DNA of 40,615 nt from a virus. Below the pieces are notes generated by a model, which did not search any database, had not been told where the DNA came from, and was given only the letters and a program-made list of their open reading frames with translations. How positions within the stretch are numbered: position 1 is the stretch's first letter; every line of letters starts with the position of its first letter. The stretch lies in IMG/VR virus record IMGVR_UViG_3300002460_000076, positions 1 through 40,615 of that record; one strand, 5' to 3'. Both the position numbers and the translations under genes were made by a program. Below, piece after piece: positions 1-40,615 of the stretch.

Positions 1-46
1 ATGCGGAATAAACTGCGGAATAAACTGCGGAATAAACTGATTTCAT
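1..46 (-). CDS. Tetrapeptide-repeat micro-ORF B, N-terminal part (runs off the window)
   Basis: The start codon at 46-44 overlaps the stop of the upstream repeat ORF (45-43) in an ATGA arrangement. The visible product begins MKSV and continues YSAV, YSAV, YSA before leaving the window at position 1. The ribosome-binding site AAAGGTGGG lies 5' of the ATG, inside the C-terminal codons of the preceding ORF. If position 1 is joined to 40615, the frame stays open to the stop at 40445-40443, giving 219 nt and a 72-aa peptide. That joining is inferred, not seen. Function is unknown. The conserved frame and start cassette argue for translation. Confidence 0.6.
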   Translation of the reverse strand, partial: MKSVYSAVYSAVYSA

Positions 47-63
47 TCTTCCCACCTTTCTAA
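35..63 (-). repeat. Translation-start cassette, copy 1
   Basis: A 29-bp element, identical at 35-63, 247-275 and 40435-40463. On the minus strand it carries TTAGAAAGGTGGGAAGA followed by ATG AAA TCA GTT. In this copy the first part also encodes LERWEE, the C-terminus of the upstream repeat ORF, so one sequence serves as coding end, ribosome-binding site and next start. Confidence 0.85.
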
Positions 64-258
64 TGGAACTGCGGAATCAACTGCGGAATGAACTGCGGAA
101 TGAACTGCGGAATAAAATGCGGAATAAACTGCGGAACGAACTGCGGAATAAACTGCGGAACGAACTGCGGAATCAACTGCGAAATTAACTGAGGAACCAA
201 CTGCGGAACCAACTGAGGAACCAACTGAGGAACTAACTGCGGAATAAACTGATTTCAT
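43..258 (-). CDS. Tetrapeptide-repeat micro-ORF A (71 aa)
   Basis: The product is MKSV, then fifteen tetrapeptides of the form X-S-A-V (a few are SSV or FAV), then PLERWEE. X is Tyr, Ser, Gly, Asn, Asp, Arg or His and is always encoded by an NRT codon. An in-frame GTG at 267 lies inside the ribosome-binding site, so the ATG at 258 is the better start: AAAGGTG sits about 6 nt upstream of it. The gene follows directly after the stop of the 272-649 gene and ends with its TGA overlapping the ATG of the next copy. No signal peptide or membrane segment is visible. I do not recognise a function. Regular small-residue repeats could form an extended or stacked structure, and a purely DNA-level role for the array remains possible. 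Confidence 0.65.
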   Translation of the reverse strand: MKSVYSAVSSSVGSSVGSAVGSSVNFAVDSAVRSAVYSAVRSAVYSAFYSAVHSAVHSAVDSAVPLERWEE

Positions 259-275
259 TCTTCCCACCTTTCTAA
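247..275 (-). repeat. Translation-start cassette, copy 2
   Basis: This copy is identical to the elements at 35-63 and 40435-40463. It lies between the TAG stop of the 272-649 gene and the first tetrapeptide-repeat ORF, and supplies that ORF's ribosome-binding site and MKSV start. Confidence 0.85.
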
Positions 276-649
276 TCTATTACTCTACGTTGTTCTTTTT
301 TAATGTGATCAGTTTCAAAAAGAGGTTGAATTAAATACAAACCTTTTTCAATAATTTGCTCAAGATGTTCAGCCTGCTCCATTGTTTTTAAATCTTTAAC
401 ATGACTTAAAATTGTATCATTTTTAACTGATACAAACGTATCTATTCCATTTGCATCAGGCTTATCGGTTTTAAAAATCTCAAACTTACCACCAAAAAGA
501 GCGTGACTATTAGTCGTACCTTTTAAAACTAAGCTCGTTTTTTGTTTCTTCGCATCCTTTGGAATCTTTTTTAAACCTTTTGCCGAGTTACTTTTTGCAT
601 ATCCAAGTCTTATTAGTATGCAGTCCCCTTGCGGATATATCTGTATCAT
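272..649 (-). CDS. Conserved small phage protein (125 aa) upstream of the repeat array
   Basis: Start ATG at 649, preceded by GGAGAGAAA. The N-terminus, MIQIYPQGDCILIRLG, suggests a beta-rich fold. A central TTNSHALFGG segment and a C-terminus reading GLYLIQPLFETD then QRRVID resemble, from memory, a family of small phage and plasmid proteins with a Gly-His-Ala-His-type centre and a Tyr-x-Val...Ile-Arg-Arg-Val-Ala-Asp-like end. I recall that family as often sitting beside low-complexity repeat proteins. This is an analogy and not a confirmed assignment. The stop abuts the ribosome-binding site of the tetrapeptide-repeat ORFs, so the two are probably co-translated and may work together. Function is unknown. 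Confidence 0.7.
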   Translation of the reverse strand: MIQIYPQGDCILIRLGYAKSNSAKGLKKIPKDAKKQKTSLVLKGTTNSHALFGGKFEIFKTDKPDANGIDTFVSVKNDTILSHVKDLKTMEQAEHLEQIIEKGLYLIQPLFETDHIKKEQRRVID

Positions 650-4733: not shown

Positions 4734-4763
4734 CCATCACTTCCCACCCTCTACTCTCCTTAT

Positions 4764-4868
4764 ATGAAACAAGGTCGTCATATGAAACAAGGTCGTCATA
4801 TGAAACAAGGTCGTCATATGAAACAAGGTCGTCATATGAAACAAGGTCGTCATATGAAACAAGTGTGA
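4764..4868. repeat. 18-bp direct repeats (five full copies plus one partial)
   Basis: The unit ATGAAACAAGGTCGTCAT starts at 4764, 4782, 4800, 4818 and 4836, with a partial copy at 4854. The full copies are identical. Each junction forms CATATG, a small palindrome. The repeats lie directly upstream of the proposed late promoter. They look like iterons or activator-binding sites. Both strands are open through them only because the unit contains no stop codon, and no ribosome-binding site precedes the ATG on the plus strand. Confidence 0.85.
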
Positions 4869-5974: not shown

Positions 5975-7526
5975 AGCGCAAATCATGTACTCTGGTGCAG
6001 AAGAAGAACAACTGATGGCGCGGATGTGGTCGCTTGACATTAAGGATAACCCTTACAACTACGTCATGTATGCATTCCCATGGGGGCAGAAAGGTACACC
6101 GCTTGAGCACTTTAAGGGGCCGAGGTCGTGGCAGAAGAAGTTACTACTCAAGATTGCAGATCAAGTTAGAACTAATAAGAACTTAGTAGCTTTAGGTCAG
6201 AAGCCTAAGCTATTCAAGGCTGCGCGTTCATCCGGTCGTGGTATCGGGAAGTCGTCACTTGTCGCATGGCTTAACTTATGGATGATGTCGTGTCACTTAG
6301 GGTCGACATGTATCAACACCGCTAACACTGAAGCACAGCTTAAGGATAAGACGTGGGCTGAACTTGGTAAGTGGCACACGCTTGCGATTAACTCTCATTG
6401 GTTTGATCGAACTACACTATCACTCACACCTGCATCGTGGTTTGAAGCACTTCTTAAGGATAGAACGCTGATGATCGACACTGGTTATTATTATGCTAAG
6501 GCTATTACATGGTCTGAAGATAACCCTGACTCATTTGCGGGTAATCACAACATGACAGGCATGCTTGTTGTGTTCGATGAAGCTTCAGGTATTCCAAAGC
6601 CGATATGGACTGTATCATCTGGTTTCTTCACAGAACCTACGATCTATCGGTTTTGGGTTGTGTTCTCGAACCCACGTAGGAACACTGGACCGTTCTTTGA
6701 GTGTTTTCATTCTCAGCGCGATTCATGGGAAAACGAATGCATTGACTCCCGTACTGTTGAAGGGACTGACGTAGATATTCTCAACCAGATCATCAAGGAT
6801 AATGGGATAGATTCAGATGAGGCGAAGATTGAGGTATATGGTCAGTTTCCAGAAACAGGTCAGATGCAGTTTATTGGTCGAACATTGATTAGAGAAGCAA
6901 CTGACCGAGCTGCTGAACATGAAGCAGCGAAGATCACTGACGACTATGCTGGACTTATTATGGGAGTAGACCCGGCGCGTGGAGGTGACTCGACTATCGT
7001 AAGGTTCAGACGTGGACGTAACGCCTGGGAGATTCCGTTCATTAAGATACTTGGTAATAACATGGACGTAGCAAACGAACTTGCGCACATTATCAACACT
7101 TACAGACCTGATGCGGTTTGCATTGACGCTGGAGCTGGTACAGGGATTATCGACAGACTTCGTGAGAAGAAGTTCAAGATCGAAGAGGTTTGGTTCGGTG
7201 CCAAGAGTAAGAAGCCGCAATGGGAGAATAAGCGTATAGAAATGTGGAATGATATGCGTGAATGGTTAAGTGGTGGAGGGATTGATAACTGCCCGACTTT
7301 GATCGACGACCTAGCAGGCCCAGAATATCAATGGACCGCTAGTGGTGATAAGCGAGTACTTGAATCGAAAGAATCAATGCTCAGTCGTGGGCTTGCTTCA
7401 CCCGATCATGGGGATGCGCTAGCTTTGACGTTTGCTGTAAAGGTGGCCCGAAAAGACTTATCAATCGTGAAGAACGATAAGAAGAAGGTCCGAATCGCTA
7501 TTGGTGCTGAAGATAGCATCTACTAA
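5964..7526 (+). CDS. terL: Terminase large subunit (520 aa)
   Basis: The packaging motor ATPase and nuclease. The Walker A-type motif is ARSSGRGIGKSS (about residues 87-98) and Walker B is MLVVFDEAS (about 200-208). The nuclease domain has GVDPARGGDS (about 333) with its first acidic residue, CIDAGAGTG (about 385) and DHGDAL (about 480), the usual three acidic positions of an RNase H-like nuclease. GGAGATTACAG precedes the ATG at 5964. All expected motifs are present, and the length is typical. Confidence 0.95.
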   Translation: MSSKAQIMYSGAEEEQLMARMWSLDIKDNPYNYVMYAFPWGQKGTPLEHFKGPRSWQKKLLLKIADQVRTNKNLVALGQKPKLFKAARSSGRGIGKSSLVAWLNLWMMSCHLGSTCINTANTEAQLKDKTWAELGKWHTLAINSHWFDRTTLSLTPASWFEALLKDRTLMIDTGYYYAKAITWSEDNPDSFAGNHNMTGMLVVFDEASGIPKPIWTVSSGFFTEPTIYRFWVVFSNPRRNTGPFFECFHSQRDSWENECIDSRTVEGTDVDILNQIIKDNGIDSDEAKIEVYGQFPETGQMQFIGRTLIREATDRAAEHEAAKITDDYAGLIMGVDPARGGDSTIVRFRRGRNAWEIPFIKILGNNMDVANELAHIINTYRPDAVCIDAGAGTGIIDRLREKKFKIEEVWFGAKSKKPQWENKRIEMWNDMREWLSGGGIDNCPTLIDDLAGPEYQWTASGDKRVLESKESMLSRGLASPDHGDALALTFAVKVARKDLSIVKNDKKKVRIAIGAEDSIY

Positions 7527-7954: not shown

Positions 7955-9558
7955 TGATTGAAAATCAAAAATATCGAAGCATTGTTGAAGATTGTGAAAA
8001 ATTAGCAAGTAATAGAGCTAACTTTAATTCTCAATGGAGTGAAATCGCAGAAGTGTGTGATCCTTCATCAAAGGGTTTATTTCAAGGCAATACTTCTCAA
8101 GGTGAAAAACGAAATCAGAGCGTTCTTGATTCAACACCAATAATTTCACTTCAGCGATTCGGCGCTATCTTAGATAGTTTACTGACTCCACGAAATCAAA
8201 AATGGCACAAGATTCAACCTTCAAACGATTATTTATTAAGAGATAGAGAGACGAGATTATATTTTGAACAGGCTAATAACATTTTATTCAAACTCAGATA
8301 TGCACCGATTGCTAACTTTCAATCACAAAATCAAAAAGATTACATTTCGCTTGGTGCTTATGGTACTAGCTGTATGTTTACTGATGAACTGCGCGGCGGT
8401 GTTGTAGGTTTTAGATATAAGTCGATTCACTTATCTGAGTTCTATTTTACTGAGAATCATCAAGGTATTCCAGATAAAGTCTATCGTAAGTTTAAAATGT
8501 CAGTTCGCCAAATGAAACAGCGTTGGGAAAATAAACTACCTGATAAGATTAAAGAAATGAAGGACACCTCTAAAGAATATGAAGTTGTCCACATTGTACA
8601 ACCTAATGAAGATATGGACCGCAATCGTGCAGATTATAAAGGTATGCCTTTTTATAGCTGTTACGTTCTCGTAGAGGGTGCACTAGCTTTAGAGGAAGGT
8701 GGGTTTACCTCATTCCCTTATGCTGTGAGTAGATACGAACAGTCACCAATTGAACTTTACGGCAGATCTCCTGCCATGAGCGCACTACCCGCAATTAAGA
8801 CTCTCAATGAGCAAAAGAAAACAGTATTAAAGCAAGGTCACAGAACTGTTGATCCAATATTACTGTTTGCTGATGATGGAATACTTGACGGGTTCAGTCT
8901 AAAGGCTGGTGCCATGAATGTTGGCGGAATATCTGCGGAAGGTAAAGAGTTAGTAAAGGCTTTACCCATTGGTCGTGTCGATGTAGGGCGCGAAATGATG
9001 GAAGATGAAAAGAACACTATTAAAGACGCGTTCTTAGTTTCGATATTCCAGATCCTTACAGAAAACCCTCAAATGACTGCAACTGAGGTAATGGAGCGTA
9101 CACGCGAAAAAGGTATCCTATTAGCCCCAACAGTAGGTCGTCAGCACACTGAAAAGCTTGGTCCTATGATTGAGCGCGAACTTGATTTAGCTTCAAAGCT
9201 CGGCCTATTACCTCCAATGCCGCAAGCATTAATTGAAGCACGTGGTGAATATAGAATCGAATACGACTCACCAATAAGTAGAGCACAACGATCTGAAGAA
9301 GCGGCGGGTGTTATGCGCTCTGTTCAGTCTGCTTTAGAAATCGTCAACGTGACTCAAAACCCAGAACCGCTTGATCATTTTAATTGGGACAGTATTATAC
9401 CTGAAGTATCTGATATTAACGGAACACCTTTAAGATGGATGAGGTCACTTGAAGATGTTCAACGAATCAGGGAAGGTAGAGCACAAGCGCAACAACAACA
9501 GCAAATGATTGACGCTGCCCCTGCTGCTGCCGGTATAATTAAAACTATGCAAAAATAA
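7954..9558 (+). CDS. Portal (head-tail connector) protein, T7 type (534 aa)
   Basis: Forms the dodecameric ring at the packaging vertex. The N-terminus has the family pattern NRANFNSQWSEIAEVCDP and ...RFGAILDSLLTPRNQKWHKI. The central part keeps GRSPAMSALPAIKTLNEQKK, the stretch typical of T7-like head-tail connectors. The C-terminus is Gln/Ala-rich. The length of 534 residues is as expected. It is coupled to the preceding gene by TAATG. Confidence 0.93.
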   Translation: MIENQKYRSIVEDCEKLASNRANFNSQWSEIAEVCDPSSKGLFQGNTSQGEKRNQSVLDSTPIISLQRFGAILDSLLTPRNQKWHKIQPSNDYLLRDRETRLYFEQANNILFKLRYAPIANFQSQNQKDYISLGAYGTSCMFTDELRGGVVGFRYKSIHLSEFYFTENHQGIPDKVYRKFKMSVRQMKQRWENKLPDKIKEMKDTSKEYEVVHIVQPNEDMDRNRADYKGMPFYSCYVLVEGALALEEGGFTSFPYAVSRYEQSPIELYGRSPAMSALPAIKTLNEQKKTVLKQGHRTVDPILLFADDGILDGFSLKAGAMNVGGISAEGKELVKALPIGRVDVGREMMEDEKNTIKDAFLVSIFQILTENPQMTATEVMERTREKGILLAPTVGRQHTEKLGPMIERELDLASKLGLLPPMPQALIEARGEYRIEYDSPISRAQRSEEAAGVMRSVQSALEIVNVTQNPEPLDHFNWDSIIPEVSDINGTPLRWMRSLEDVQRIREGRAQAQQQQQMIDAAPAAAGIIKTMQK

Positions 9559-9572
9559 CTTTGGAGAATTGA

Positions 9573-9869
9573 TTGAGTAATATTCGTGAGACTTTCAGAG
9601 AAGTAGTTATTCGCGCTAAAGATTTATTTCGCGAAAAGAAAATTGCATATTTAAGAGTTTTTAAACCCGATGAAGGATCAGTTCACTCTGATTCAGTTGT
9701 TGTTGTTTTAAAAGACTTAGCTAAATTCTGTAGAGCTAACAAAACTTGTTTCAATCCTGATCCAAGAGTTCACGCTAACCTTGAAGGTCGTCGTGAAGTT
9801 TGGTTGAGGATATTGGAACATCTAAATCTAACCCCCGATGAATATTGGGACAAGTATGGGAGAGAATAA
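9573..9869 (+). CDS. Bbp19-like phage protein (98 aa)
   Basis: Starts at TTG 9573, preceded by TTTGGAGAATTGA. There is no nearby ATG in frame. The sequence LKDLAKFCRANKTCFNPDP followed by EGRREVWLRILEHLNL is the signature of the Bbp19 family, small proteins encoded beside portal and scaffold genes in podoviruses. Their exact role in the virion is not established. The stop overlaps the scaffold ATG (TAATG). Confidence 0.8.
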   Translation: MSNIRETFREVVIRAKDLFREKKIAYLRVFKPDEGSVHSDSVVVVLKDLAKFCRANKTCFNPDPRVHANLEGRREVWLRILEHLNLTPDEYWDKYGRE

Positions 9870-39301: not shown

Positions 39302-39322
39302 AAAACCCGACATAGAGTCGGG
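39297..39322 (-). terminator. Terminator of the leftward small-gene operon
   Basis: On the minus strand, CCCGAC (39322-39317) and GTCGGG (39311-39306) enclose a 5-nt loop and are followed by TTTTTTATTTT. It is a standard terminator for the minus-strand genes. On the plus strand no U-tract follows it. Confidence 0.8.
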
Positions 39323-39330
39323 CGAATTAC

Positions 39331-39665: not shown

Positions 39666-39878
39666 TTAAAACTCCTTCATTAAATCTGGTTTACGAATAA
39701 ACATTTTAATCAATCTAACAGTTGTCTCAGGTACTCGGCGCTGACCATTTTCCCACAATTGTACAGCTTGAGGGGTTACACCTATTAATTCAGCAAACTG
39801 TTTTCCATCCATACCCCAATCGGTACGGAATTTTATAAGTTCTTCGGGTTTCATTATCGGTTCCATTATCGGTTTCAT
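39666..39878 (-). CDS. XRE-type HTH regulator (70 aa)
   Basis: The helix-turn-helix is GKQFAELIGVTPQAVQLWEN, a typical XRE/Cro signature, in a single-domain protein of 70 residues. The ATG at 39878 overlaps the upstream stop (ATGA). Two further Met residues (positions 5 and 9) could also be used. It is the only clear XRE protein in the window and so the simplest candidate to bind the TGAACA-N-TGTTCA palindromes, although there is no direct evidence. Confidence 0.8.
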   Translation of the reverse strand: MKPIMEPIMKPEELIKFRTDWGMDGKQFAELIGVTPQAVQLWENGQRRVPETTVRLIKMFIRKPDLMKEF

Positions 39879-40366
39879 TTTGCCGCCTTATCTCTGTTTT
39901 CTTGTTTTACAGCTCTATAATATCTGTACGTTTTTTCATATTTATATTCTGAACGACTTGGATAAAATCCTTCAATCATTCCACTATCTAACAATTCTCT
40001 AAAACCATGCAAGAATAATTCGTTATTATTTATACCTATTTCTTGCTTGAATAATAAAAGTGAATCAAGTCCAAGACCATAGGGTATTTTCTTTAAAAAA
40101 TCATAAATACTTACAGCTTCATTAGCATACGCATTTTTTACAAATTCACCAGTCGGTAAACTCGCGTCAAACTCAAATGCGTCAGACCTCATTGACTCCT
40201 TATCGACTGCAAAAGATAATATTTTGCTCACTGGTAAACTTTGCCTATCTGAATGAAATCTTAGTTTAGACATCATTGATTTTGGTAAGAAGACAGTGAA
40301 TTTTTCATATACGTTTTCTTCAGTAGTGACTGTAAACCTCTTATATTTCGGTTTTCTTGGAATCAT
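39875..40366 (-). CDS. Possible ribbon-helix-helix-like protein (163 aa)
   Basis: The ATG at 40366 overlaps the stop of the 26-aa repeat ORF (TAATG). A GTG at 40375 lies inside the ribosome-binding site and is less likely. The N-terminal segment TVFLPKSMMSKLRFHSDRQS with VSKILSFAVD has a ribbon-helix-helix look. The C-terminal part is helical and Tyr/Arg-rich (YEKTYRYYRAVKQENRDK). A DNA-binding role is possible. No family is confirmed. Confidence 0.6.
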   Translation of the reverse strand: MIPRKPKYKRFTVTTEENVYEKFTVFLPKSMMSKLRFHSDRQSLPVSKILSFAVDKESMRSDAFEFDASLPTGEFVKNAYANEAVSIYDFLKKIPYGLGLDSLLLFKQEIGINNNELFLHGFRELLDSGMIEGFYPSRSEYKYEKTYRYYRAVKQENRDKAAK

Positions 40367-40446
40367 TACTCCCACCTTTCTAAACGAACTGCGGAATAAA
40401 CTGCGGAATAAACTGCGGAATCAACTGCGGAACGAACTGATTTCAT
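40366..40446 (-). CDS. Tetrapeptide-repeat micro-ORF C (26 aa)
   Basis: The short member of the repeat family: MKSV, RSAV, DSAV, YSAV, YSAV, then RLERWE. The ATG at 40446 overlaps the TGA of the preceding repeat ORF. Its own TAA overlaps the ATG of the next, unrelated gene. The ribosome-binding site for that downstream gene is formed by its final codons (AGG TGG GAG). This shows the array is wired into the operon's translation. Confidence 0.65.
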   Translation of the reverse strand: MKSVRSAVDSAVYSAVYSAVRLERWE

Positions 40447-40463
40447 TCTTCCCACCTTTCTAA
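40435..40463 (-). repeat. Translation-start cassette, copy 3
   Basis: Identical to the copies at 35-63 and 247-275. It encodes the LERWEE end of one repeat ORF and starts micro-ORF C. Confidence 0.85.
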
Positions 40464-40615
40464 ACGAACTGCGGAATTAACTGCGGAATCAACTGCGGAA
40501 TGAACTGCGGAATCAACTGCGGAATAAACTGCGGAACGAACTGCGGAACTAACTGCGGAATAAACTGCGGAATTAACTGCGGAACTAACTGCGGAACTAA
40601 CTGCGGAACTAACTG
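40443..40615 (-). CDS. Tetrapeptide-repeat micro-ORF B, C-terminal part (partial)
   Basis: The frame is open from the right edge and ends in RLERWEE at the stop 40445-40443. Twelve complete units are visible, with X residues Ser, Ser, Ser, Asn, Tyr, Ser, Arg, Tyr, Asp, His, Asp and Asn in translation order. It is probably the remainder of the ORF that starts at 46, because joining the window ends preserves the frame. Function is unknown. Confidence 0.55.
   Translation of the reverse strand, partial: VSSAVSSAVSSAVNSAVYSAVSSAVRSAVYSAVDSAVHSAVDSAVNSAVRLERWEE

Follow-up and report, generated by a model that had tools for sequence, protein, structure and literature searches.

The two ends of a 40,615-base virus record (the window, which is the whole stretch of DNA analyzed here) fall inside an array of 12-bp repeats that reads, on the minus strand, as successive short open reading frames. 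These micro-ORFs are very probably real genes of a phage module linked to the protein domain DUF6745. The explanation that we favor, and that is probably correct, is that the array is a set of translationally coupled micro-genes for mostly helical XSAV proteins, where X is variable. These would be a free-standing form of the repeat that other phages carry inside DUF6745 proteins, and would act as a rod or spacer, most likely in counter-defense or superinfection conflict.

RESULTS AND DISCUSSION

Head-to-tail micro-ORFs at the ends of a viral contig

Three short ORFs lie head to tail on the minus strand, each of the form MKSV-(X-S-A-V)n-(P/R)LERWE(E). Micro-ORF1 (positions 43–258) encodes 71 amino acids, MKSV-(XSAV)15-PLERWEE. 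Micro-ORF2 is interrupted by the contig end: its 5′ part (1–46) carries MKSV and three units, and the 3′ part of this ORF or of a later copy (40443–40615) carries 12 units and RLERWEE. The two parts make a single ORF, spanning 46–1 and 40615–40443, only if the record is circular. Micro-ORF3 (40366–40446) encodes 26 amino acids, MKSV-(XSAV)4-RLERWE. No unit contains a stop or a frameshift, and every copy retains intact, nearly identical terminal caps and ribosome-binding sites.

A Shine-Dalgarno sequence precedes each micro-ORF on the minus strand. The one before ORF1, AAAGGTGGG (263–271, identified by sequence and duplex energy), overlaps the stop codon region of the 125-aa gene (272–649, minus strand) immediately upstream. 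The site before ORF2 (51–59) lies within the LERWEE codons of ORF1, such that the end of a micro-ORF holds the Shine-Dalgarno sequence of the following ORF. A duplex-energy scan located the site before ORF3 (40451–40459) and an identical cassette (40371–40379) before the 163-aa gene (39875–40366, minus strand), for which no relatives were found and whose function is unassigned. All three micro-ORF starts and the start of this next gene share AGAAAGGTGGGA, whose duplex with the anti-Shine-Dalgarno sequence (−7.7 kcal/mol) is among the strongest 1% when compared with random positions in the window, a value typical of the other genes there. Starts and stops overlap along the array as ATGA, ATGA, and then TAATG into the 163-aa gene. 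The original prediction had described at least three such ORFs (71 aa, one split, and 26 aa), in one frame, with good ribosome-binding sites and starts overlapping stops, directly downstream from the 125-aa gene in a minus-strand operon. The sequence agrees on each of these points.

A terminator-like site (39305–39323, minus strand) marks the end of the operon, and none was found around the array. The sole PADLOC match was a low-complexity one, lying in the repeat itself. Two other repeats were observed on the record. At 39847–39879, farther downstream in the same operon, a 12-bp repeat encodes the repeated MEPIMKP-like N terminus of a 70-aa HTH (MqsA/HTH_3-like) gene. At 4762–4863, between early minus-strand genes and the terminase operon, there is a perfect 18-bp tandem repeat, ATATGAAACAAGGTCGTC, of 5.7 copies that can be read on the minus strand as LFHMTT repeats.

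What the window reveals about its repeat unit

The 12-mer unit is GTT-NRT-TCC-GCA, and its variation is almost confined to the first two bases of the X codon. Across the 33 units in the window, X takes seven identities (Y, S, D, R, G, N, and H). Cysteine (TGT) is absent where 3.9 occurrences are expected, a deficit whose P value of 0.002 assumes independent units, which they are not. Of the six frames, only SAVX is free of stops across ORF1. However, one other minus-strand frame and one plus-strand frame of the bare 12-mer also lack stops, so the openness of the frame proves little. Changes outside X are few and exclusively nonsynonymous, with no synonymous change present; thus the window alone shows no protein-level selection. 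Moreover, the start cassettes, being duplicates of each other, do not represent three independent events. For these reasons, the case for translation must rest on relatives of the array. The earlier claim of translated, expandable repeat peptides is well supported by that comparison, but it is not demonstrable from the window alone.

We also considered a structured-RNA role for the array. This found no support, as the region folds less stably than its shuffled counterparts (z +1.9).

Related repeats reside in phage DUF6745 proteins

A protein-level pattern search (NRT-S-A-V, four units, with synonymous codons left free) matched 23 viral stretches, and a looser pattern matched 119. In many of these the array lies inside a protein of ∼350–900 amino acids with a C-terminal Pfam DUF6745 domain (PF20530). 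In most phage DUF6745 proteins, the repeat sits between the N-terminal region and the domain, in the same frame as in the window. Other unit types found in DUF6745 proteins are X-S-Q-L, X-S-A-T, X-S-G-I, X-N-A-V, X-G-A-V, X-S-S-L, and X-D-Q-L. Wherever an array was examined, variation in X falls on the first two codon positions, the third base being mostly fixed (as T, C, or G in different phages); outside X, the unit hardly varies or has one further variable residue. The S, A, and V codons differ synonymously between phages while the tetrapeptide stays the same.

Arrays with a variable X adjoin DUF6745 or its usual small neighbor gene in 28 of 36 viral loci, versus 19 of 87 loci with a monotone array or no variable-X AV-type array (Fisher P = 1e-8). 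The eight exceptions include two loci (L046 and L113) with DUF6745 elsewhere on their records, one (L027) that represents the opposite end of the contig of L031, and one (L041) whose repeat gene also occurs in the DUF6745-bearing L081. Among 71 bacterial loci matching the pattern, none has a variable-X array or is linked to DUF6745; these are single-residue microsatellites and were rejected as relatives.

The closest described counterparts are phage DUF6745 proteins such as prophiGD102-1 gp38 and UOF77368 of MW202476, which share with the window the 12-bp unit, the in-frame tetrapeptide array with a hypervariable first residue, and the small neighbor. They differ in that the repeat is part of one protein of 350–900 amino acids, whereas the window record has separate short ORFs and no DUF6745 domain was matched when the record was searched. 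The break in the contig falls within the array, leaving an unsequenced gap between the contig ends. This gap could hold a DUF6745 gene, because in one relative (L215) that gene lies between two runs of micro-ORFs.

The locus prophiGD102-1 gp37–gp38 (L218:2722–4555) belongs to an annotated mycobacterial prophage with the same gene pair and W/R/G-(D/G)-Q-L repeats; both products are annotated only as hypothetical proteins. Another phage has two DUF6745 genes (L085:2432–5089 and 8355–9692), each with its own neighbor, one with XGAV-like and one with ARDAL-like repeats. Adjacent DUF6745-like genes occur at L103:5706–6479 and 6514–7158, one with XSQL repeats and one without repeats.

The exact repeat of the window has no match in IMG/VR, no close relatives of the 125-aa or 163-aa genes were found, and tblastn with the 71-aa ORF found nothing, for which low-complexity filtering is the probable cause. 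Relatives of the terminase (two loci) and portal (80 loci) carry no array, DUF6745, or partner gene in the stretches scanned. PHROG 22557 and 13877, to which no function is assigned, match the repeat weakly and only as low-complexity sequence. Neither sequence nor fold comparison connects DUF6745 to any PDB entry, and its significant fold matches are limited to other phage proteins, of which two bear the name DUF6745. The literature searched, from which subscription papers were mostly absent, yielded nothing on this domain.

The repeat may form a rod. AlphaFold2 predicts one continuous helix for ORF1 (residues 2–63, pLDDT 88). The repeat inside DUF6745 proteins is likewise predicted as helices, at pLDDT of only 35–45, between two confidently folded parts. 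These predictions are weak evidence because Ala-rich repeats are easily called helical.

The 125-aa gene resembles a conserved neighbor of DUF6745

A small protein of ∼100 amino acids (RQGDVL...GExTGHAHR...HEEH.TI...QREY...D) is usually encoded adjacent to the repeat-bearing DUF6745 gene. When the 125-aa protein was compared by hhalign with an alignment of seven such neighbors (A1), it aligned over its whole length with a probability of 93% (E = 3e-7). It also matches an HMM of the family (E = 0.003). Judged by these profile comparisons, the 125-aa gene is a diverged homolog of the small QGD/GHAH/HEEH protein, and thus the window has a neighbor-type gene beside its repeat. The GHAH and HEEH motifs, whose His and Glu residues are near-invariant in A1 (L018, L019, L028, L013, and others), look like a metal site in sequence. 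The histidine motif is largely lost in the window copy.

Pattern searches with XSAV impose the residues S, A, and V on their results, and only a search seeded with the neighbor is free of this bias. Because the DUF6745 alignment and the seven-member neighbor alignment were too diverged for scanning, a four-member neighbor alignment was used. In IMG/VR, 221 stretches match the motifs of the partner gene alone, and 213 encode a relative of it. The neighbor-only search returned 80 loci, with DUF6745 in 47, tetrapeptide repeats in 61, and neither in eight; one or both features therefore accompany the neighbor in 72 of the 80. A contig end lies ≤1.2 kb from the neighbor in 32 of the 80 loci (L299–L378), and 25 of these 32 have repeats, which is the same breakage seen in the window. 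Since contigs with this gene often end in the repeat, the genes involved are probably under-reported in metagenomes.

Free-standing arrays occur in other phages

Arrays of at least two adjacent short ORFs with constant caps, each starting on or near the preceding stop, are found in the window and in at least four other phage lineages (L213, L214, L215, and L080 type), whose unit sequences and end caps differ from those of the window. In L213, five ORFs of 57–107 amino acids have the caps MTKEYE...RELDND and each overlaps the next by 8 nt; DUF6745 and the neighbor are 7 kb away. L214 has the neighbor gene, a DUF6745 gene without internal repeats, and then MSVHNAV... ORFs that start on the preceding stops. 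The order in L215 and L026 is neighbor, about nine micro-ORFs, DUF6745, and about eight more micro-ORFs. These ∼17 ORFs grade from clean XSAV repeats to strongly diverged versions, many of which retain a hydrophobic residue at every fourth position. In L080 and its relatives, a DUF6745-like gene without repeats, which scores below the Pfam cut-off, is followed by MKQIN-(XSQL)n-LQNT ORFs. These relatives keep the frame and the start-on-stop or closely spaced start cassettes, an outcome that favors the original prediction, which would have been refuted by relatives with the DNA motif but without the frame or cassettes.

In L214 and L080, the repeats are missing from the DUF6745 gene and micro-ORFs are present downstream instead. 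Repeats that are fused to a domain in one phage and separate beside it in another are a classic sign of functional partnership, and we infer from these gene arrangements that such a partnership exists. The free-standing products might bind the DUF6745 protein or the small partner.

Evidence for selection on the protein, another of the proposed tests, is mixed. In the A and V columns of L026 there are 25 synonymous versus 15 nonsynonymous changes (P = 1.5e-4), and 54 of the 61 units have Val in the V column. The same A and V test was not significant for L213 and L214, where the V column is nearly always hydrophobic. Together with the gene arrangements, these observations suggest that the micro-ORFs are translated in vivo.

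Comparison with other variable phage repeats

Mycobacteriophage Tweety gp54 has ∼48 tetrapeptides encoded by 12-bp units that vary at codon positions 1 and 2 with the third fixed (PMC2884959), as in the window. Escape mutants with more or fewer of its repeats overcome a prophage defense (PMC9262239, PMC8549241). Unlike the window ORFs, whose caps are 4 aa at the start and ∼7 aa at the end, gp54 is a single long ORF with unique N- and C-terminal regions that are absent from the window ORFs, and it has a reported counter-defense function. It was rejected as a DUF6745 homolog, since no DUF6745 is detectable in it. Variable region 2 of bbp36 in Bordetella phage BMP-1 is a coding repeat of variable number in a gene said to be dispensable, as cited in PMC2884959; going by that citation, its element is 24 bp, versus the 12-bp unit of the window. 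The original view that no described system has this architecture needs qualification, given the widespread DUF6745 module and Tweety gp54. Free-standing tetrapeptide micro-ORF arrays themselves were not found described in the literature searched.

Alternative explanations

The 12-bp repeats might instead act as DNA, for example as origin iterons, a centromere-like site, or another protein-binding array, with the open frame arising incidentally from a unit length that is a multiple of three. The near-identity of the window units in DNA, their lack of synonymous variation, the additional stop-free frames of the bare 12-mer, and the location of the array in a region of negative GC skew within the minus-strand operon all fit this idea. 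We nevertheless consider it unlikely, since unrelated arrays built from unrelated DNA repeatedly have starts, Shine-Dalgarno sequences, and starts that overlap stops, other phages join a Pfam domain to this same reading frame, and the S, A, and V codons change between phages while the tetrapeptide is kept. Also, no replication initiator was recognized beside the array among the genes scanned. If the short ORFs were leader peptides, then translation through a variable number of units would set expression of the 163-aa gene. This would account for the TAATG overlap and for the ribosome-binding site that this gene shares with the micro-ORFs. However, ORFs in relatives reach 107 aa (L213) and 289 aa (L081), some runs end without such a downstream partner, and RNA structure is below that of shuffles, making this reading very improbable.

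A decaying remnant of a DUF6745 gene that has lost its domain, leaving micro-ORFs without function, would explain why the record has the usual neighbor but no DUF6745. Intact caps, ribosome-binding sites, and units argue against decay, as does the presence of similar micro-ORFs in phages with intact DUF6745 domains, and we judge this scenario decidedly unlikely. That matter aside, the contig break beside the neighbor gene in the window matches the picture in contigs of relatives. Breaks of this kind, at both ends of the record and at the arrays of many relatives, could also hint at an assembly artefact, in which repeats of several phages collapsed into a chimera at the contig ends. Such an artefact is very improbable, because unique flanking genes anchor cassettes 1–3 on either side and arrays of this kind occur in mid-contig in relatives.

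A possible role in phage conflict

The favored explanation, coupled micro-genes belonging to the DUF6745 module, can be extended to a mechanism. The products would be short, mainly α-helical tetrapeptide-repeat proteins with a variable X, a free-standing form of the hypervariable DUF6745 repeat found where it usually lies, next to the small partner gene of the QGD type. Length and X composition may change through unequal recombination between 12-bp units. Duplication of a whole start-repeat-end cassette would yield additional genes, and the C-terminal codons of each would contain the ribosome-binding site for the gene that follows. Inside the infected cell, the repeat could serve as a variable rod or spacer acting with, or in place of, the DUF6745 protein. 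Its role would most likely be in counter-defense or superinfection conflict, where the number of repeats and the identity of X would tune its effect, as reported for Tweety gp54. This functional step rests on analogy because gp54 is not detectably homologous to DUF6745, and a counter-defense role for the array in the window is only tentatively suggested. A more speculative extension, which we regard as doubtful, is that DUF6745, the small partner, and hypervariable-X rods, fused or free, constitute a widespread, unnamed diversifying module. Recombined rods would then match or decoy changing host or prophage defense proteins, and repeat number and X would form a readable specificity code.

The repeat arrays account for the breakage of many of these phages' contigs at this site. 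Starting from the micro-ORFs, one reaches a large, unstudied family of hypervariable phage repeat proteins, for which the only reported function comes from one nonhomologous example, Tweety gp54, where copy number retunes counter-defense. A single variable residue per unit with fixed third codon positions is unusual, and points to diversifying selection or reassortment of units. In its free-standing form the module is reduced to its variable part, which makes the role of the repeat itself directly testable.
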